DNA of 64,000 nt, taken from NCBI RefSeq assembly GCF_000327485.1, contig NC_019943.1, positions 2,480,001-2,544,000 on the forward strand. Reading direction: 5' to 3'. This DNA is from Methanoregula formicica SMSP. GTDB lineage: Archaea; Halobacteriota; Methanomicrobia; Methanomicrobiales; Methanospirillaceae. Below are positions 18,724 to 27,283 of the stretch, in pieces; the first letter of the stretch is position 1, and every line of letters begins with the position of its first letter. The notes beneath the pieces are model-generated. The model was not told the origin of the DNA, did not search any database, and saw only the letters and a program-made list of their open reading frames with translations. The position numbers and the translations under genes are program-made.

Positions 18724-19734
18724 TCACAGCTTGATCCGTGCGAATTCGACGAACTGGATTCCTGAAGAATGTACAGCGCCAAACAACATCTTCTTTTTGA
18801 CACTGTGGGCCATCCGCACGGAACGGGAGATAACACTCATGGGAAGAGCGGCTTCCTTCTCCACGGCATGGACGAGCAGGTCGGAATGGACGGAAGTCCC
18901 GCAGTAGACACGGAAGTGGTGCCCGAATTTGTATCCCGTCCGGGGCGTGAACCCGTGGCGGCGCAGCTCGGTGTACACGGTATGTTTCAGGGTGAGCTCG
19001 CTGTCGCTCTCGCTTGCGAGAGCAAGGTACTCGGCAAAACTCATCCCCGCATCCCCCCGCATGAGCCGGATTGTTCCCCGGTCCATAAGGTAGAGGAGTT
19101 CAACGGGAGCGAGCATGAGCCGCTCCGGGTCAAGCCGCTTGCCGAACCCGGCCTTCTCAAGGCTTGAATCTGCCGTTACCCTGACCATTGCCGATTTGCC
19201 GGTCAGCATTGCATCCGTTGGGGTGAGATCCGGCAGCGTACAGGACGCATCTGCCAGTTTCTGGAGCTTGATCTCGTAATAGGTCAGCTCCTGTTCGTCG
19301 TCAACGACGGCAAGGATGTACTGTTTGCGCATATTGCGCGAGGCGATCACTTCCTCGATCAGGAGTTCGAACAGGATCGGGTCACGCTCGGAGAGCACTC
19401 GGACAAGATAGAGCGACTCGCCTTTACCGGGCTTTTCCCCCCGCCGGAAGACCCGGAAGTCATGCGGCCCGGTCTGGACCACGTAACCCCGTTCCCGCAG
19501 ATCGCGGTACACGAGAAAACTCCGCATGACCGTGGGCTGATCGGAGAACTCGGCAAAGAGGGTGTCAAACGAGTACCCGGGCACTTCGATCTTCTGGCGA
19601 TGGAGAAGATACAGGGCCTCCTGGGGGGAGAGCCGGAGACCGTCTCCCTCCGGCCTGCCGTACCCGCTCTGCTCGTAGAGAGGGCGGCCTTCCCGCCCGG
19701 TGCGGATGATGGATCCGTCGAATATCGCTTTCAC
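18724..19734 (-). CDS. endA: tRNA-splicing endonuclease, two-repeat form
   Basis: 336 residues made of two similar halves, the size of the homodimeric archaeal EndA in which each chain holds a tandem repeat. The second half has the conserved Tyr (TGYKFGHHF), His (FGHHFRVY) and a Lys near the C-terminus (SVKKKM), the family's catalytic triad; the first half keeps the fold (GYVVQTGPHDFRVF) but fewer active residues. It cuts bulge-helix-bulge introns from tRNA precursors. First gene of the endA-trpS-pheST operon, starting at the ATG at 19734. Confidence 0.93.
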   Translation of the reverse strand: MKAIFDGSIIRTGREGRPLYEQSGYGRPEGDGLRLSPQEALYLLHRQKIEVPGYSFDTLFAEFSDQPTVMRSFLVYRDLRERGYVVQTGPHDFRVFRRGEKPGKGESLYLVRVLSERDPILFELLIEEVIASRNMRKQYILAVVDDEQELTYYEIKLQKLADASCTLPDLTPTDAMLTGKSAMVRVTADSSLEKAGFGKRLDPERLMLAPVELLYLMDRGTIRLMRGDAGMSFAEYLALASESDSELTLKHTVYTELRRHGFTPRTGYKFGHHFRVYCGTSVHSDLLVHAVEKEAALPMSVISRSVRMAHSVKKKMLFGAVHSSGIQFVEFARIKL

Positions 19735-20025: not shown

Positions 20026-20667
20026 ATGGTGCACGAATACAGCGACCCCGGATGCCGAAGCAGGAGCAGACTCAACCTCTCAGGTTATCTCATGCGTTCG
20101 ACCGTAAACGGTCCCGGCACCCGGGCCGTTGTGTGGGTCCAGGGTTGTCCTCTCCGATGCAAAGGCTGCTTTAACCAGGCATTCTGGGCCTTTTCTCCTG
20201 CGCATATTGTTCCAGCTAAGGAACTCGCAGCCCGCATTCTTACGACAAAGGGAATAGATGGCATCACCTTCTCCGGAGGGGAGCCTTTTGCCCAGGCCGG
20301 ACCCCTTGCGGATGTGGCAGAACGGATCCTGGATGCGGGGCTCACGGTCGTCACCTATTCCGGTTATACCTTTGAACAGCTCGCCTCATGCCACGATTCG
20401 GATTGTTGCCGGCTCCTTGCTGCAACGGACCTGCTGATTGCCGGCCCGTACCGCGAGGACCTTGCCTGCAGGGACAGGTACCGGGGATCGGCAAACCAGC
20501 AGATCATTTCTCTTTCCGGAAGGATCGTGCCGAAATCAGTCCTTCCCGAACAGGATCAGGAAAAAACTGTGGAGTTTACCATCGCGCCTGACGGAACGGT
20601 CACCACAACGGGATTTCCACCCGACAGCCTGTTGACGCAGATGGCTGCTCGATGCAGAGGAGAGTAA
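20026..20667 (+). CDS. Radical SAM activating enzyme, NrdG/PflA-like, operon-linked
   Basis: 213 residues. STVNGPGTRAVVWVQGCPLRC, then KGC, gives the radical SAM cysteines C41, C45 and C48; GITFSGGEPF is the SAM-binding GGE motif. This is the short glycyl-radical-activase form, as in anaerobic ribonucleotide reductase activase. No glycyl-radical enzyme lies beside it; the next genes are DUF1257, AAA+, WD40, Hsp70-like and DUF2997. Its true partner may therefore be a protein of this operon rather than ribonucleotide reductase (inference). It is followed by DUF1257 after five bases. Confidence 0.85.
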   Translation: MVHEYSDPGCRSRSRLNLSGYLMRSTVNGPGTRAVVWVQGCPLRCKGCFNQAFWAFSPAHIVPAKELAARILTTKGIDGITFSGGEPFAQAGPLADVAERILDAGLTVVTYSGYTFEQLASCHDSDCCRLLAATDLLIAGPYREDLACRDRYRGSANQQIISLSGRIVPKSVLPEQDQEKTVEFTIAPDGTVTTTGFPPDSLLTQMAARCRGE

Positions 20668-20672
20668 GAGGG

Positions 20673-21071
20673 ATGTCGCATTTCAGCCGTATCAGGACAA
20701 CATTCCGGCACCGCGAAGCACTCGTGCAGTGCATGCAAGAACTCGGGTATTCGGTGGAGACCGACACGACCATCAAAGGGCACCATGGCCTTCACAACGT
20801 GGATATCGCTGCACGGAAGACCAGAGGATATGCCCTCGGGTTCGTGAAGAACGCGGACGGGGCATACGATCTCGTGGCCGACTGGTGGGGTGTCTCCGGC
20901 ACAAGCGAGCAGAAGATTGCAGAAGATCTGAAGCGGCAGGCAGGTGCCATCCAGCAGGAGTATGCAAAAAAAATGGTGCTGGAACAGGCAAAAAAGGAGG
21001 GCTTCGAGCTGGTGTCGGAGAAGAACGAACAGGACGGGACGGTGCAGCTCGTGGTCCGGAGGTGGCAGTAA
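20673..21071 (+). CDS. DUF1257 (Ycf35-like) protein
   Basis: 132 residues beginning MSHFSRIRTTFRHREALVQC, with a DIAARKTRGYALGFVKNADGAYDLVADWWG core, matching the DUF1257 family known from plastid and cyanobacterial Ycf35. The function is not established. The ATG at 20673 has AGGAGAG upstream; an earlier in-frame ATG at 20652 overlaps the previous gene and is less likely. Co-occurrence with a Ycf46-like ATPase and DUF2997 recalls cyanobacterial gene sets. The second half is charged and helical, perhaps for binding a partner. Confidence 0.82.
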   Translation: MSHFSRIRTTFRHREALVQCMQELGYSVETDTTIKGHHGLHNVDIAARKTRGYALGFVKNADGAYDLVADWWGVSGTSEQKIAEDLKRQAGAIQQEYAKKMVLEQAKKEGFELVSEKNEQDGTVQLVVRRWQ

Positions 21072-21075
21072 ATCC

Positions 21076-22638
21076 ATGCAGATCGCTGAACCTGACTTCT
21101 CCCGCAGGCTCAATATCTCGCTGCGCGCCCGCGTGACCCTGATCGTTGTCATCACGCCCGAGGAGGAGCGGGCAGTGTCCGGGATCCGCGAAGTATGCGA
21201 ATCCTGGGATCCGTCCCGCCAGTGCATTGCCTGGGACTGCGTGGGTGGCTTCTCCGTGCTTGTCGGCCCAAAAACCTTCCCCGGCCAGTCCCGCGACCCG
21301 CTCGCAGCGCTCGACGACATGATCAAGACCGGGGAAGACGCGGTCGTCATCTTAAAGGACTTCCACGAGTACTGGAACAACCCGCAGGTGAAACGACGGA
21401 TCCGCAACTTCTCCCAGGAATTCCGGTACAACCGCAGGACAATCGTGATCCTGACCCCGGCAACACGCGTCCCGGACGAGATCCGCGACGAGGCGGTGAT
21501 CGTCCACTTCCCTCCCCCAAATGCAGCCGAACTCTCGGCAGATCTCGATACCCTGATCACAACGAGCGGGATCACCTGCTCACTCACCGATGGAGGCCGC
21601 GAGAAGATCATCCAGGCCGCGCTTGGCATGACGCTGAACCAGGCCCGGCGGGCGTTCTCGAAGGCGATCGTTGCCCACGGCAGGCTCGATGACCGTGACA
21701 TTGACGCTATCATCGCCGAAAAGAAGGATATCCTCAGCGCTTCAGACGCCCTGGAGTTCTACAGTTACACCGAAACGCCGGAGAATGTCGGGGGCCTTGC
21801 GGTGCTCAAGGAATGGCTGGTCCTGCGCGAGCGGGCGTTCACGCAGGAAGCGAAAAACTTCGGCCTTCCGGCCCCCAAGGGAATTGCCCTTATCGGCATC
21901 CCGGGAACCGGAAAGAGCCTCACGGCAAAGATGATCGCCGATATCTGGCATCTCCCGCTCCTCCGGCTTGACGTGGGATCGCTTTTCGGGAGCCTTGTCG
22001 GAGAATCCGAAGAGCGGACGCGCCGTGCCCTTGCCCTCGCCGAGACCATCAGCCCGTGCATCCTCTGGGTGGACGAGATCGAGAAGGCATTTGCGTTCGG
22101 CAGCGGGGATGCCGGGACAAGCCAGCGAGTCTTTGCCCACCTGCTGACCTGGATGCAGGACAAGACCTCTCCCTGTTTTGTCGTTGCAACGGCAAACAAT
22201 ATCGCAGCGCTTCCGCCGGAACTCCTCAGGAAAGGCCGGTTCGACGAGATCTTCTTTTTGGACCTGCCGACATTCGAGGAGCGGCGCGAGATCTTCTCGG
22301 TCCACTTACGGAAGCGCAAGTGCATCCCGGCAGAGTTTGATCTCGAGACTCTAGCGCGGGAGAGCGACGGGTATGTCGGTGCGGAGATCGAGCAGACGAT
22401 CATTGATGCCATGTACCGGGCATTCAGCGAGAATATGCGCAGGGTCACGACGGAAGACATCCTCACCTGCATGCAGGCACAGGTGCCCCTCTCGGTTTCT
22501 CAGCGGGAGACGGTTGCAGCGCTTCGCACCTGGCTTGCCGAAGGACGTGCCCAGTCGGCATCCCGGGTGACCACGTCCCGTGCGCCGATGCACGGGAAGA
22601 CAATTGCACTGGAAACGTTTGCACACGAGCGCCCGTAA
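21076..22638 (+). CDS. Ycf46-like AAA+ ATPase
   Basis: 520 residues. Residues 1-230 are an N-terminal domain with an inactive-looking alpha/beta fold (VTLIVVITPEEERAV... DAVVILKDFHEYW), as in Ycf46. The AAA+ module has Walker A GIPGTGKSLT (near 273-282), Walker B CILWVDEIEKAF (near 327-338), sensor 1 VVATANNI and the arginine-finger region LLRKGRFDEIFFL; a helical lid with GYVGAEIEQ follows. It likely remodels a protein partner using ATP. Gaps of 4 and 12 bases to its neighbours show a single operon. Confidence 0.87.
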   Translation: MQIAEPDFSRRLNISLRARVTLIVVITPEEERAVSGIREVCESWDPSRQCIAWDCVGGFSVLVGPKTFPGQSRDPLAALDDMIKTGEDAVVILKDFHEYWNNPQVKRRIRNFSQEFRYNRRTIVILTPATRVPDEIRDEAVIVHFPPPNAAELSADLDTLITTSGITCSLTDGGREKIIQAALGMTLNQARRAFSKAIVAHGRLDDRDIDAIIAEKKDILSASDALEFYSYTETPENVGGLAVLKEWLVLRERAFTQEAKNFGLPAPKGIALIGIPGTGKSLTAKMIADIWHLPLLRLDVGSLFGSLVGESEERTRRALALAETISPCILWVDEIEKAFAFGSGDAGTSQRVFAHLLTWMQDKTSPCFVVATANNIAALPPELLRKGRFDEIFFLDLPTFEERREIFSVHLRKRKCIPAEFDLETLARESDGYVGAEIEQTIIDAMYRAFSENMRRVTTEDILTCMQAQVPLSVSQRETVAALRTWLAEGRAQSASRVTTSRAPMHGKTIALETFAHERP

Positions 22639-22650
22639 GAGAGTTAACGC

Positions 22651-25446
22651 ATGAGGTCTGCCGCCACCCTCCCTGTTTTCGGCCCCCTGCTCCTCCGGCG
22701 CGAGATACGGAGGCTCTCCCGTAACCTGCGGAACGGGGATCTGTCCGCAATCGGAAAACTGGCAGAAATTGAAACAACCTCAAAGGACAAAGGAGCACGG
22801 CAGGTTGCCCGGGAGAGCCTTGCGTCTCTCATGAGCCAGGAAGCCATCGATGCCCTTTGTAACGAGGCATTGTTGCGGGAGGATCCTTTCCTGCGGGATC
22901 TTGCTCTCGAAAAGGGGTATACTCCGAATCCCCCTGGTGCAAAAGCATTGTTCCTGTTTCTTTCAGGACAGGACGAGACATTCCTCCGCTTCGATCCGGA
23001 GGACCATCATCCCAGGCTTGCAGAGGGATATGCAAACGCGCAAGCACGGATCCGGTTGCACGCACTCCGCTATGCCACGGAAAATGCAGGCACAAGCCGG
23101 GGGCATGTCCTCGCTCATGCCCTTCTGGGAAGAGAGCAGGACAGTGCTGCGAAGGACTGGTCGTACGGGGAATGGGCACTTGTCATGAAAACGCTTGCCT
23201 GCGATGCATCCTGGGATCTGCTCTGGAGACTCGTACGCATGGCACCCCCGGCCTTCTCCCGTGCAGCGCTCGAGACCATGAACAGTGCAGGCTGGCATCT
23301 CGAAGGCGATGAACGGCAGGTTTTTGAGGAACTCATCGCTGACCTGCCGGAATCCTGGAATAGTCCCCTGCCGGAAAAGCCGCTCAGTTCCAACGGGGTG
23401 CAGGACAGCCAGGTGCTGCGTCTCTCGTTCTCCCGGGACGGCACCCTCCTTGGCGCAGGATCCTGCGATGGCACCATTGCTACCTGGAACGTTGCGTCTG
23501 CCCGGCTCCTTGGTTCCTGTACTCCCGGTACCGGATCCCCGCATTTCCTTGCGTTCACGCTCGACAATACCCTGCTGATAGCCGGGGGGGACAGGGGCAC
23601 ACTGCATGCAACCACCCTCTCCGGTGAGCCGGTATGGGTCTTTGACGATCCTTCTCATCCCGTCGGGTGTGCGATCCTCTCATCCAGTGGCGAGGAGATC
23701 CTGGCCGGGGACAGAGAAGGATACCTCTTCAGCATGGGGTGCAAAACCGGGGCAGTCCGCTTCTCTGCGCCTTGCCACCCCTCTCCCGTAACAGCACTCG
23801 CCCAGATAGCGGGGGGGCAGTCACTGGCAACGGGCCATGCCGACGGAACGGTCTGTTGCTTCGATGCGCTGACGGGGGTGATGCTCTGGACCGTCACGGG
23901 AACGGGCGACCCGGTCCGGGCGCTTGCCTTCTCTGAAGAAAGCGGCGGCATCCTCGTGATCCGTGGTCACGCTCTTCCGGTCTGCCTGTCCGGGCAGAAC
24001 GGGAGCCTGGTCCGGGCCTTTGCCAGGCACAGCGGCACAGTATCCTGCTCAGCAATCTCCCGGGGATGCCGGACCGTTGTTGTTGGCACCAATACGAATG
24101 TGCTCCGTATCTGGCATGAGGGGGATAATCCAACCGTGGAAATTCCGCTCTACAACAGGGTGCCATCCTGTTGCGCAATTACGCAGGACGGAACCTGCCT
24201 CATTGCAGGCTGCAATGAAGGTACGGTGTTCTCTTTTCATCTTCCCGAAGGCGTAAAGACAAGGGAGATCCGTGCGTACCGCCGCCCGGTGAGTGCCTGC
24301 TCCCTGTCTCCGGAGGGAAGACTCCTCGCCCTTGCAGGTTGGGACGGGACAGTTGCTTTGAGATCTGTCCCGGATGGGGAGCTCCTGCGCACACTCCGGC
24401 GCTCTGCCGGGGCCGTCACGTCCCTTGCCTTCGCGGGGAGGGAAACCGGTATCCTCGCCGGAACAGCGGATGGTACCGTCAGGTTGTTCTCCCCAGGTTC
24501 CGACACGGCTGGGAGGTGTATCGATCTCTATACCCCGTCATTACGTACGATCGCAGCAAGTCCGGATGGCGCAGTCCTTGCGTGTGCCGGAAAAGAGCCC
24601 GGCCTCCGGTTCTGGGATATCAGAACCGGAGGCCTCCTTTCTTCCTGCAGCGGGCTGAAGACCAGCGTGCGGTGCCTTGCGTTCCTGCCAGATGAGAAAA
24701 CACTCATTACCGGTGGATGGGACGGACGGGTCCGGTTCTGGGACGTCCCGTCTGGGACGGCAAAAGAGGTATGCAAAGGCCATACCAGCACGGTCACCTG
24801 TTGTGCCGTGAGCCCGTCGGGTGAGCTGTTCGTGACCGGCAGCAATGATACAACCGTCCGTATCTGGCAGAGTTGCGATACCAAAGAACCGCTTGTTCTC
24901 CGCGATGCGGGAAAGGAAGTGTCCTGCTGTGCCATCTCCCCGGAAGGCACGCTTCTCGCGGCGGCCGGGGCAGATCCCGTGATACGGCTGTATCACCTGC
25001 CGGACGGGGCACGCGCATATGACATCCATCAGGTCCCGGGAATCCCCACGGTACTCTCGTTTGCCAGCAACGGCCTTTCCCTTGCTGTCGGGTACGCAGA
25101 TGGGACACTGGCGTTCTATTCCCTGCATGACCGCGGCCTGATCCGGACGCTCCCCGCTCATGCCGGGGCAGTGACCGGGATTATCAGTATCGCGGAAAAG
25201 GACAGTGTTGTGACCAGCGGCGAGGATGGGAGAGTCTGCACCTTCAGGGTCCCGTTCATCCAGCCCTTATCCTTTGCAACGTTTGCCGATCTGGAGCTCG
25301 CACGGGAACATGCCGGAGGCACTGAGGCAATGGCAACCCAGTGGCGCTTTCTGTACCGGCTCCTTTCCCTCCGGTTCCAGGACGAGATCGAACTCTGCCC
25401 GGTCTTCCTGGATGCCGGCGCACTGGATATCCAGATTGTCGGGTGA
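22651..25446 (+). CDS. HEAT-like/WD40 repeat scaffold protein
   Basis: 931 residues, cytoplasmic (no signal peptide or membrane segment). Residues 1-245 are helical and HEAT-like. From about 254 to 890 I count fifteen WD-like repeats, with typical units such as VTCCAVSPSGELFVTGSNDT and LRFWD/VRIW endings, enough for two seven-bladed propellers or one seven and one eight. Such proteins are protein-binding platforms. It is unusually cysteine-rich (many SCCAIS or TCCAVS strands). Located between the AAA+ ATPase and the Hsp70-like gene, it probably presents substrates or assembles the complex (inference). Confidence 0.85.
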   Translation: MRSAATLPVFGPLLLRREIRRLSRNLRNGDLSAIGKLAEIETTSKDKGARQVARESLASLMSQEAIDALCNEALLREDPFLRDLALEKGYTPNPPGAKALFLFLSGQDETFLRFDPEDHHPRLAEGYANAQARIRLHALRYATENAGTSRGHVLAHALLGREQDSAAKDWSYGEWALVMKTLACDASWDLLWRLVRMAPPAFSRAALETMNSAGWHLEGDERQVFEELIADLPESWNSPLPEKPLSSNGVQDSQVLRLSFSRDGTLLGAGSCDGTIATWNVASARLLGSCTPGTGSPHFLAFTLDNTLLIAGGDRGTLHATTLSGEPVWVFDDPSHPVGCAILSSSGEEILAGDREGYLFSMGCKTGAVRFSAPCHPSPVTALAQIAGGQSLATGHADGTVCCFDALTGVMLWTVTGTGDPVRALAFSEESGGILVIRGHALPVCLSGQNGSLVRAFARHSGTVSCSAISRGCRTVVVGTNTNVLRIWHEGDNPTVEIPLYNRVPSCCAITQDGTCLIAGCNEGTVFSFHLPEGVKTREIRAYRRPVSACSLSPEGRLLALAGWDGTVALRSVPDGELLRTLRRSAGAVTSLAFAGRETGILAGTADGTVRLFSPGSDTAGRCIDLYTPSLRTIAASPDGAVLACAGKEPGLRFWDIRTGGLLSSCSGLKTSVRCLAFLPDEKTLITGGWDGRVRFWDVPSGTAKEVCKGHTSTVTCCAVSPSGELFVTGSNDTTVRIWQSCDTKEPLVLRDAGKEVSCCAISPEGTLLAAAGADPVIRLYHLPDGARAYDIHQVPGIPTVLSFASNGLSLAVGYADGTLAFYSLHDRGLIRTLPAHAGAVTGIISIAEKDSVVTSGEDGRVCTFRVPFIQPLSFATFADLELAREHAGGTEAMATQWRFLYRLLSLRFQDEIELCPVFLDAGALDIQIVG

Positions 25447-25464
25447 GGCAGTGAGGGTCGGTAC

Positions 25465-27066
25465 ATGAACGCACAGGAACCTGCTCTCTCCCTTGGCGTG
25501 GATTTCGGGGACGGTGCCATCGTCTGCGGGAGTATGCCACAGGACGGGAGCGGTTTTTTTACCCATGCATTCCCCGGCTGGTCGGAGGAACTACCGGACC
25601 CGGGAGGATCCGTACCGATACACCGGGTTCCGTCCCTTGTACGGTATCGTGACGCGAACTACCATGATATCGGGAATGAGGTTGTGCGGGGGGGAAATTC
25701 TGATCACCCGGCAACGGCCCGGTGGATCCGCAGCTACCTGCTCGAAGAGAGCGGGGCACTGATCGCGGCGGGGGATGAAAAACGGGTAACGTTCCGCGAT
25801 GCTGCGTGTGACCTTCTCGGTGCAATCCTGGTGAAGACCGTGACCGGGCACCAGAACATCCGTTCCGTTGTTTTTTCCGTTCCGGAAGATGCACCACCAT
25901 GGTACAGGGACTGGCTTTCGAAGATCGCCCGCACTGCAGGCATGACTGCCTGCCACACCATCGCAGAATGTTCAGCAGCAGCGGCCGGTTACGGTCTGGC
26001 AGTTGAGACGGGGCAGTCGTTTCTCCTCTTTTCCTGTGACGAGACGGCACTCAGCCTCCGTATTGCCAGGAACAACGGGTCTTTAGACAGCGCAGACATG
26101 GAAGTGATCGGGTCAGCCCGGACAGACACCGGTTCTGTCATTCTGGATACCTGGATTGCACAGGAGATCGTGGAGAAAAGCCATCTGGCGTATCATGGAA
26201 GACGGGGACAAAGCCTGATCGATGCAGCACGTGCATGCGTTCCGGGGGTCGTGCAGCACCTTGCCCGTGGCGATGAGGCTGTTGCGGGATTTCCGGATCC
26301 GGTCTCCGGAAGGCCAATCACTGTAAGGATAACGGCAGACGACATTATCCGGGTGTTTGCCGATCATGGACTGCCCGCGATCCTTGACGATGTAATCCGG
26401 TGCGCACGCGGGGAGGCACTGGCACGGGGATACGCTGATAGTGCACCGGCAGCGGTCCTGATGACCGGCCGTGGATCACTTCTCCCCGCGGTACAGGCAC
26501 TTGCCCGGGAGCGTTTTTTTGGAGTTCCCGTTCTCTCAGATCACCCGCTCGATGCCATTGTGAGGGGTGCGTGCCTGTTCCGTTCCCGTAGCGCTTCTTC
26601 AGATCACATAAGGAACAACTACGCGCTCCGGTACTGGGACCCGGCCGCGCGGGAACATCGGTACCGTTTCCTCGTCCACAGTGGCGCACGATTTCCCAGT
26701 GCCGGGCAGGTCGCCCGGATCACCATCAGTGCCGCATATGACGGGCAGGCCCGACTCGGTCTCTCCCTGTTCGAAATTGGCAGCAACGGGCCCGGGACAG
26801 GGCTGGCACTCGAACTGGTCCAGGATCCCTCCGGGGGCGTCCGGGTTGCCGCGCCTGAAAAAGATGCGGACGAGGGGAGCAGGCCAAGACTCGTGAACGG
26901 CACAATACCGACAGTGCTGGCCGCCGATCCGCCTGGCGTAAAAGGGGAGCCCCGGTTCGAACTGACATTCACCATCGACCGTGAGAGACAACTCTGCCTC
27001 ACGGCTCGCGATCTCATTACCGGGGCGATTATCAGAAGAGATGCACCGGTGTACCGGTTAACATAA
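25465..27066 (+). CDS. Divergent Hsp70/actin-fold protein
   Basis: 533 residues. LGVDFGDGAIVCGS near residue 10 resembles the phosphate-1 loop of Hsp70, VVFSVPEDAPPWYRDWL and HTIAECSAAAAGYGL match the helical connection region, and VLMTGRGSLLPAVQAL is the adenosine motif (VGGSSRIPxV in DnaK). The phosphate-2 motif DLGGGT is replaced by LLFSCDETALS, so ATP hydrolysis may be weak or absent. The C-terminal 150 residues are a beta-rich domain like a substrate-binding domain. It is unlikely to be the cell's general DnaK; a dedicated chaperone of this operon is more likely. Confidence 0.8.
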   Translation: MNAQEPALSLGVDFGDGAIVCGSMPQDGSGFFTHAFPGWSEELPDPGGSVPIHRVPSLVRYRDANYHDIGNEVVRGGNSDHPATARWIRSYLLEESGALIAAGDEKRVTFRDAACDLLGAILVKTVTGHQNIRSVVFSVPEDAPPWYRDWLSKIARTAGMTACHTIAECSAAAAGYGLAVETGQSFLLFSCDETALSLRIARNNGSLDSADMEVIGSARTDTGSVILDTWIAQEIVEKSHLAYHGRRGQSLIDAARACVPGVVQHLARGDEAVAGFPDPVSGRPITVRITADDIIRVFADHGLPAILDDVIRCARGEALARGYADSAPAAVLMTGRGSLLPAVQALARERFFGVPVLSDHPLDAIVRGACLFRSRSASSDHIRNNYALRYWDPAAREHRYRFLVHSGARFPSAGQVARITISAAYDGQARLGLSLFEIGSNGPGTGLALELVQDPSGGVRVAAPEKDADEGSRPRLVNGTIPTVLAADPPGVKGEPRFELTFTIDRERQLCLTARDLITGAIIRRDAPVYRLT

Positions 27067-27079
27067 CGGGAGGAAAGGT

Positions 27080-27283
27080 ATGGAACTACAGGAAATGGAA
27101 ATCAATATCGACAAGGAAGGAAGAGTCCAGATAAACGTGAAGGGAGTACAGGGCACCGGCTGTCTCGCACTGACCCGGGATCTTGAGACTGCCTTAGGAG
27201 TAGTTGAGCAACGGGAATATTCCGCAGACTATTATCAGCAGGAGACAGGCGTCTGTGAGCACCGGACACTGAAATCCCGATAA
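27080..27283 (+). CDS. DUF2997 small protein, last gene of the AAA+/WD40 operon
   Basis: 67 residues: an EINIDKEGRVQINVKGVQG beta-hairpin, then a GTGCLALTRDLETALG helix. This matches the DUF2997 pattern, in which a conserved Cys precedes a helix. DUF2997 is often found beside DUF1257 and AAA+ genes. A possible modified residue or cluster-binding role of the Cys has not been shown. It starts 13 bases after the Hsp70-like gene, with a GGAGG sequence upstream. Confidence 0.75.
   Translation: MELQEMEINIDKEGRVQINVKGVQGTGCLALTRDLETALGVVEQREYSADYYQQETGVCEHRTLKSR

Follow-up and report, generated by a model that had tools for sequence, protein, structure and literature searches.

A six-gene operon of Methanoregula that links Ycf35- and Ycf46-type proteins to a radical SAM enzyme and an Hsp70-like protein

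Six consecutive genes of Methanoregula, encoding in this order a radical SAM enzyme, a DUF1257 protein, an AAA+ ATPase, a HEAT/WD40 protein, an Hsp70-like protein and a DUF2997 protein, may together specify one ATP-driven protein-handling (i.e. chaperone-type) machine that includes a radical chemistry step, a reading to which we assign a probability of about 0.4. The proposal builds on gene linkage and sequence motifs that are directly observed, and extends from there to a putative complex, an adaptor role, a modified residue and a client. That the genes form one functional unit had been suggested by an earlier sequence-only reading of this DNA, and the recurrent linkage described below argues in the same direction. 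Ycf35 (DUF1257) and Ycf46 (AAA+) have been retained in cyanobacteria and plastids, and to our knowledge their mechanism is still not settled. Both plastid genes, long unexplained, now appear as components of a single portable machine, and their linkage with a radical SAM enzyme, Hsp70 and a small protein with a conserved cysteine, across archaea, bacteria, plasmids and phages, makes an open question directly testable.

Organization and distribution of the operon in methanogens

The window, i.e. the whole stretch of 64,000 bases that was analysed, covers positions 2480001-2544000 of a genome that consists of one contig of 2,820,858 bases. The six genes (Table 1) all lie on the + strand and are separated, in order, by gaps of 5, 4, 12, 18 and 13 bases. 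The open reading frame coordinates thus agree with the one-directional, tightly spaced (4 to 18 bases) arrangement described before, and the Pfam matches together with an alignment to DnaK uphold all family assignments made at that time (radical SAM, DUF1257, AAA+, WD40, Hsp70-like and DUF2997). In the case of DUF1257 a longer reading frame, starting at 20652, overlaps the first gene; the true start is likely the conserved MSHF at 20673, the N-terminal pattern of the family being MSH[FYW].

Table 1. Genes of the operon and its fixed neighbour (window coordinates)
Feature	Position	Strand	Basis
Radical SAM enzyme, NrdG/PflA-activase type, 213 aa	20026..20667	+	PF13353, PF04055
DUF1257 / Ycf35 protein, 132 aa	20673..21071	+	PF06868, phrog_20456
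Ycf46-type AAA+ ATPase, 520 aa	21076..22638	+	Pfam AAA + AAA_lid_3, phrog_8638
HEAT-like N-terminal domain + WD40 propeller region, 931 aa	22651..25446	+	many Pfam WD40 matches
Hsp70-like protein, 533 aa	25465..27066	+	DnaK alignment, motif check
DUF2997 protein, 67 aa	27080..27283	+	PF11211
tRNA-splicing endonuclease, divergent fixed neighbour, outside operon	18724..19734	-	Pfam; conserved beside operon

The surroundings are mostly of a housekeeping nature (tRNA endonuclease, tryptophanyl- and phenylalanyl-tRNA synthetases, endonuclease IV) and further include a metallo-beta-lactamase-fold protein and a DEAD helicase protein. DUF1257 was found in 18 of 150 sampled genomes of the order, every one belonging to the Methanoregulaceae, and the operon is missing from about half of the sampled genomes of that family. 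In all 18 carriers the first three genes (radical SAM, DUF1257, AAA+) adjoin one another, and the tRNA endonuclease was seen beside the operon in 17 of these within the short stretches examined. In longer stretches and in further contigs of Methanoregula and Methanolinea, the six genes occur in identical order at every uncut locus. Because this order is preserved and purifying selection acts on each of the six genes (dN/dS about 0.04-0.34, lowest in the AAA+ gene with 0.04-0.15 and highest in the WD40 and Hsp70-like genes with 0.19-0.34), their grouping is far beyond chance. Relatives that lack the operon usually have an endonuclease IV gene adjoining the tRNA endonuclease at the corresponding place, and the presence or absence of the operon therefore plays out at one site.

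A four-gene core and an Hsp70-HEAT/WD40 partner layer

A search for conserved neighbourhoods of DUF1257, DUF2997 and AAA+ finds these families linked in Bacillota, Alphaproteobacteria, cyanobacteria, plasmids and phages. The joint unit proposed earlier thereby stands, yet what recurs broadly is a core of four genes and not of six, namely radical SAM, AAA+, DUF1257 and DUF2997, without the Hsp70/WD40 layer. The core is consecutive (AAA-DUF1257-DUF2997-rSAM) on a plasmid of Paenibacillus polymyxa; it is present with a weak DUF1257 match on plasmids of Paenarthrobacter and Arthrobacter (Actinomycetota), with a weaker and more distant radical SAM match on a Bacillus halotolerans plasmid, with a divergent DUF1257 and an extra membrane/HHH protein in Oscillospiraceae and other Bacillota, and with DUF1257 fused to DUF2997 in rumen Alphaproteobacteria. 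Phages of Rhizobium and Aeromonas carry AAA-x-DUF1257-DUF2997, and all four core genes were found on five viral contigs. DUF1257 and/or DUF2997 lies within 7 kb at 24 of 80 viral AAA+ loci. Since a carrying genome has a single DUF1257 match (as determined in the order-wide sample), this co-location of 30% is far above chance; our own estimate from genome sizes puts the chance rate for DUF1257 within 7 kb at about half a percent. A viral scan with the DUF1257 of the window alone retrieved two weak loci only.

The Hsp70 and HEAT/WD40 genes constitute a partner layer that the Methanoregulaceae share with cyanobacteria. Genes for GrpE, Hsp70, DUF1257, DUF2997, AAA+ and HEAT-WD40 proteins are present on a Pseudanabaena plasmid, the AAA+ of which is 60% identical to that of the window; the genome of the window has a canonical GrpE elsewhere. 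Among 146 genomes assigned to the cyanobacterial phylum, four have a similarly close AAA+ relative (55-60% identity). One of these (G533) has the run GrpE-Hsp70-DUF1257-DUF2997-AAA-HEAT, and in another (G473) all six operon families are contiguous, together with a weak GrpE-like gene (E 0.012), in the order GrpE-like, Hsp70, AAA, DUF2997, radical SAM, DUF1257 and HEAT protein. Other cyanobacterial chromosomes and plasmids hold most of the six families together. The linkage thus reaches well past close relatives, into cyanobacteria, plasmids and viral contigs, and the claim of a unit survived this check. At a larger distance, 93 of the 146 genomes encode an AAA+ protein with full-length similarity to that of the window (43-60% identity), among which we presume Ycf46 itself to be included. 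The kinship with Ycf35 and Ycf46 that had been recognized before is borne out by this full-length similarity and by the PF06868 match of DUF1257.

In a maximum-likelihood tree of the AAA+ proteins, the Methanoregulaceae form one clade (100/100), the clade of the cyanobacterial clusters is its sister (95/82), and the joint clade has a support of 100/100. On the basis of this joining we read the operon as having moved horizontally between the Methanoregulaceae and the cyanobacterial group, in line with an earlier suggestion; the tree, being unrooted, would fit a transfer in either direction.

Both proteins of the partner layer needed a closer description. The WD40 protein was considered a double beta-propeller scaffold; a WD40 propeller region, putatively double, stands, and a conserved HEAT-like N-terminal domain (about residues 1-230), which matches the HEAT proteins of the cyanobacterial clusters (1e-54 to 1e-80), has to be added. 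In the case of the Hsp70-like protein, MreB is the sole match in Pfam (1.6e-6) and the alignment with DnaK, which extends over the ATPase domain and some way into the substrate-binding domain, is weak (E 0.0014); its cyanobacterial orthologue matches HSP70 at 1e-38. Compared with what we take to be the reference motifs of DnaK, the nucleotide motifs of the window protein are lost (DFGDGA, SCDETA), the set of phosphate-1, phosphate-2 and adenosine motifs being no longer intact, and a C-terminus resembling the substrate-binding domain is retained. The protein had rightly been called a degenerate Hsp70. The motifs are lost in Methanoregula, whereas they are canonical in the Methanolinea-type and cyanobacterial orthologues. 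Nevertheless, the reading frame in Methanoregula is intact (dN/dS 0.19-0.34), and, its nucleotide motifs being gone, the protein probably now acts in binding only.

The proposed machine and competing explanations

The motor of the proposed machine would be a ring of the Ycf46-type AAA+ protein (Pfam AAA at 2.3e-30, plus AAA_lid_3; phrog_8638 over the full length at 2.1e-144). Its sole P-loop (Walker A GIPGTGKS, 274) and sole Walker B (ILWVDE, 329) are both located in the second half, i.e. an N-terminal part without P-loop precedes a C-terminal AAA domain with intact motifs and lid, and it is this C-terminal domain that has the catalytic residues. DUF1257 (PF06868, 86.4 bits against a curated cut-off of 22.2, E 1.7e-24; phrog_20456, 1.3e-24) and DUF2997 (PF11211, 67.3 bits against 24.1, E 1.1e-18) are clear members of their families, and, as they are adjacent or fused in many genomes, we propose that they could act as a pair of adaptors (carriers). 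DUF2997 has near-invariant residues G14, G22, G25 and C28, forming GxxGxxC (G14 in 61, G25 in 58 and C28 in 60 of 62 sequences). The radical SAM enzyme would modify a protein held by the core, most likely this loop or else a client presented by DUF2997; the radical SAM activases to which it is related abstract hydrogen from protein backbones. The GxxGxxC is thus a plausible modification site, and DUF2997 keeps the position of possible target that it had been given before, although the loop could also be purely structural. In some lineages, clients may be recruited by the HEAT/WD40 and Hsp70-like proteins.

AlphaFold models, made from inputs that left out rows from plasmid or phage records, have a pLDDT of 82.6 for DUF1257 and 83.5 for DUF2997, the latter with a predicted beta-beta-alpha fold. 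A sequence search of the PDB with both proteins gave no match and Foldseek gave none below 0.001 for either model; an SRPBCC-like kinship of DUF1257 was discarded, the Foldseek matches in question being weak (TM below 0.45). The want of a confident structural relative for the two proteins, and the possibly structural Cys/Gly loop, count against the machine, as does the fact that most examined cyanobacterial DUF1257/DUF2997 or AAA+ loci have no adjoining radical SAM gene. Moreover, at 56 of the 80 viral AAA+ loci the remaining core genes are all absent from the surrounding 7 kb, which implies that the AAA+ protein can work without them. A more far-reaching version is offered as a doubtful one. 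In it the core would be a machine for protein modification, hitherto undescribed and carried by phages and plasmids, whose small carrier DUF2997 receives a radical-made modification at GxxGxxC; plastid Ycf35 and Ycf46 would be its remnants, and a client-recruiting layer of Hsp70 and HEAT/WD40 would have been gained by the Methanoregulaceae and by some cyanobacteria.

The carriage of the core on plasmids and phages may also point to a module for biological conflict (defence or phage counter-defence), in which the HEAT/WD40 and Hsp70-like proteins would sense an invader, the AAA+ protein would assemble the complex and a small protein modified by the radical SAM enzyme would be the effector. This is consistent with an AAA+ protein that has its P-loop and Walker B in the second half and a putative dead AAA domain in the first, as described for the ATPase of the FtsH ternary systems (PMC7159879), with the WD40 and Hsp70-like proteins being the fastest to evolve (27-40% identity where AAA+ holds 67-80%) and with the surroundings of the Geminocystis copy, in which DUF4007, HNH endonuclease and PAPS-reductase genes give the look of DNA-modification defence. 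Yet PADLOC yields generic AAA+, viperin and WD40/HEAT matches only, no MoxR or vWA gene lies beside the window operon, and the operon of the Methanoregulaceae, unlike defence islands, keeps to a single place in the chromosome, where its neighbours are housekeeping genes; phage carriage, moreover, is at odds with simple host defence. We therefore regard a conflict role as unlikely.

Studies in cyanobacteria and plastids lead in the direction of iron-sulfur or redox-stress maintenance, where the machine would assemble, repair or regulate a metalloprotein, with the radical SAM enzyme as one of the clients or electron users. In Synechocystis, ycf35 and the gene for DUF2997 belong to one operon with fed7, the loss of which impairs growth under iron limitation, metal stress and oxidative stress (PMC4284462); slr0374 (ycf46) belongs to a stress operon that is responsive to iron deficiency as well as to oxidative stress, and when slr0374 is lost the activity of the carbonic anhydrase EcaB falls (PMC7496141); and in red algal plastids the losses of ycf35 and of ycf46 both track habitat (PMC5940233). 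However, the methanogen operon has no ferredoxin, a conserved multi-cysteine Fe-S ligand set is absent from DUF1257 and DUF2997, and the carriage by phages and plasmids is left unexplained, which makes such a role quite unlikely. In two-hybrid tests, moreover, Fed7 binds a protein of the DnaJ-like kind (PMC4284462), and in conjunction with the shared cyanobacterial operon this gives the proposed machine a separate and independent hint of a link to the Hsp70 machinery.

The radical SAM enzyme could in principle be NrdG, the activase of anaerobic ribonucleotide reductase, or activate another glycyl-radical enzyme, with the other genes assisting activation. It matches PF13353 (Fer4_12, 2.5e-33) and PF04055, has CxxxCxxC (kept in 72 of 73 core members) and GGE motifs without a SPASM extension, finds its best family matches in NrdG and PFLA, and is the top NrdG match of the genome. 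But the gene scores 102.6 bits, i.e. below the cut-off of the NrdG equivalog TIGR02491 (126.1 bits), and so do all ten core relatives tested (82-119 bits); 40 of 41 genomes of the family encode NrdD, among them genomes without the operon, and the nrdD gene is distant from the operon; a second activase-like radical SAM gene exists elsewhere in the genome; and no glycyl-radical motif was found near the 23 loci checked. Similarity to the NrdG and pyruvate formate-lyase activating enzymes is therefore one of family, with scores below the curated cut-offs and no neighbouring glycyl-radical enzyme, and we consider an NrdG identity, or a role as activase of another glycyl-radical enzyme, very improbable. 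Finally, that unrelated genes are co-transcribed in one methanogen family with no joint function would fit a dispensable operon, missing as it is from many Methanoregulaceae, but is hardly credible and for the four-gene core already disfavoured, as the families recur together, reordered and with fusions, in distant phyla, plasmids and phages.

Relation to known systems

The passages on DUF1257 or DUF2997 covered by our search, which extended to papers outside subscription, give no account of the module; a further paper that names one of these families is, judging by its title, a soil-expression study. A paper on the dark matter of archaeal genomes (PMC4158269) is silent on both Methanoregula and Hsp70. 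The anti-phage system IetAS was rejected as a counterpart, its similarity being confined to the active AAA domain and the operon having no protease (IetS). Gene 5 resembles DnaK/Hsp70 in its domain alignment and differs from it, in Methanoregula, in the nucleotide motifs. The GAP1-N2 systems are conflict-type clusters that bear Hsp70 and GrpE genes, but they are centred on a GTPase instead of a Ycf46-type AAA+ protein (PMC7159879). The cyanobacterial DUF2997-ycf35-fed7 operon and ycf46 have the DUF1257, DUF2997 and AAA+ families in common with the window operon, but there a ferredoxin takes the place of the radical SAM enzyme, ycf46 is located in a separate operon, and no Hsp70 or WD40 partner is reported.

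The nearest published system is that of the FtsH ternary systems (Kaur et al. 2020, eLife, PMC7159879). These have a double AAA+ ATPase of which the first domain is dead and the second active, and some of them possess a beta-propeller or a radical SAM gene, the latter being credited with the modification of a small peptide; by description, the window operon is alike in its one active second-half AAA domain, its radical SAM gene and its beta-propeller. The available part of that description mentions neither DUF1257 nor DUF2997, and its radical SAM enzymes are of the Memo-AMMECR1 type, whereas that of the window is NrdG-like. The defining feature of these systems is a pair of partners, MoxR and vWA, and since the window operon and its annotated neighbours include neither a MoxR AAA+ nor a vWA gene, the resemblance is one in working and not in membership.

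Nucleotide-motif decay in the Hsp70-like gene and the DUF1257 N-terminus

Within a single archaeal family, the Methanoregulaceae, the nucleotide motifs of Hsp70 are lost stepwise, and despite this decay the Hsp70-like gene is under purifying selection, both in the window and in the stretches of its relatives. The family's genes form a natural series that leads from a chaperone ATPase to a pseudo-Hsp70. With respect to DUF1257, most of the proteins, in the window and among relatives, start with a conserved Met-Ser-His, and Ser2 is invariant in the alignment (44 members), which suggests that the N-terminus is functional.

Core genes on plasmids and phage contigs

On the Treponema succinifaciens plasmid pTRESU01 (L124, L125), genes for DUF1257, DUF2997 and radical SAM-AAA+ are interspersed with contractile-injection-system genes (i.e. 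sheath, baseplate V, VgrG and PAAR). In Aeromonas phage HJ05 (L113), a tail-hub-like gene precedes the order AAA-x-DUF1257-DUF2997. There may be a connection with contractile-tail assembly. The Geminocystis plasmid pGM3709_04 (L108) carries a close AAA+ relative amid DUF4007, DUF3800, HNH endonuclease, RloB and PAPS-reductase genes, surroundings with the appearance of a defence island of the DNA-modification kind. The phage-like contig L161, on which radical SAM had no match, encodes a DUF1257-DUF2997 fusion, a thymidine-kinase-like protein and an NrdD-like protein.

Split anaerobic ribonucleotide reductase

In the genome of the window, the anaerobic ribonucleotide reductase consists of two separate proteins, and nearly all of the 41 Methanoregulaceae genomes searched gave two distinct NrdD matches each.

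Coordinates of the features, counted within each stretch (L169 and L170 belong to the genome of the window, L019-L067 to Methanoregulaceae relatives)
Feature	Stretch	Position	Detail
Hsp70-like gene	window	25465-27066	compared with L019-L067
Likely DUF1257 start	window	20673	Met-Ser-His
NrdD catalytic protein	L169	3960-6146	without glycyl-radical motif
Zinc-ribbon/glycyl-radical protein	L170	3736-4119	separate, 127 aa, motif ISRVTGYLQD
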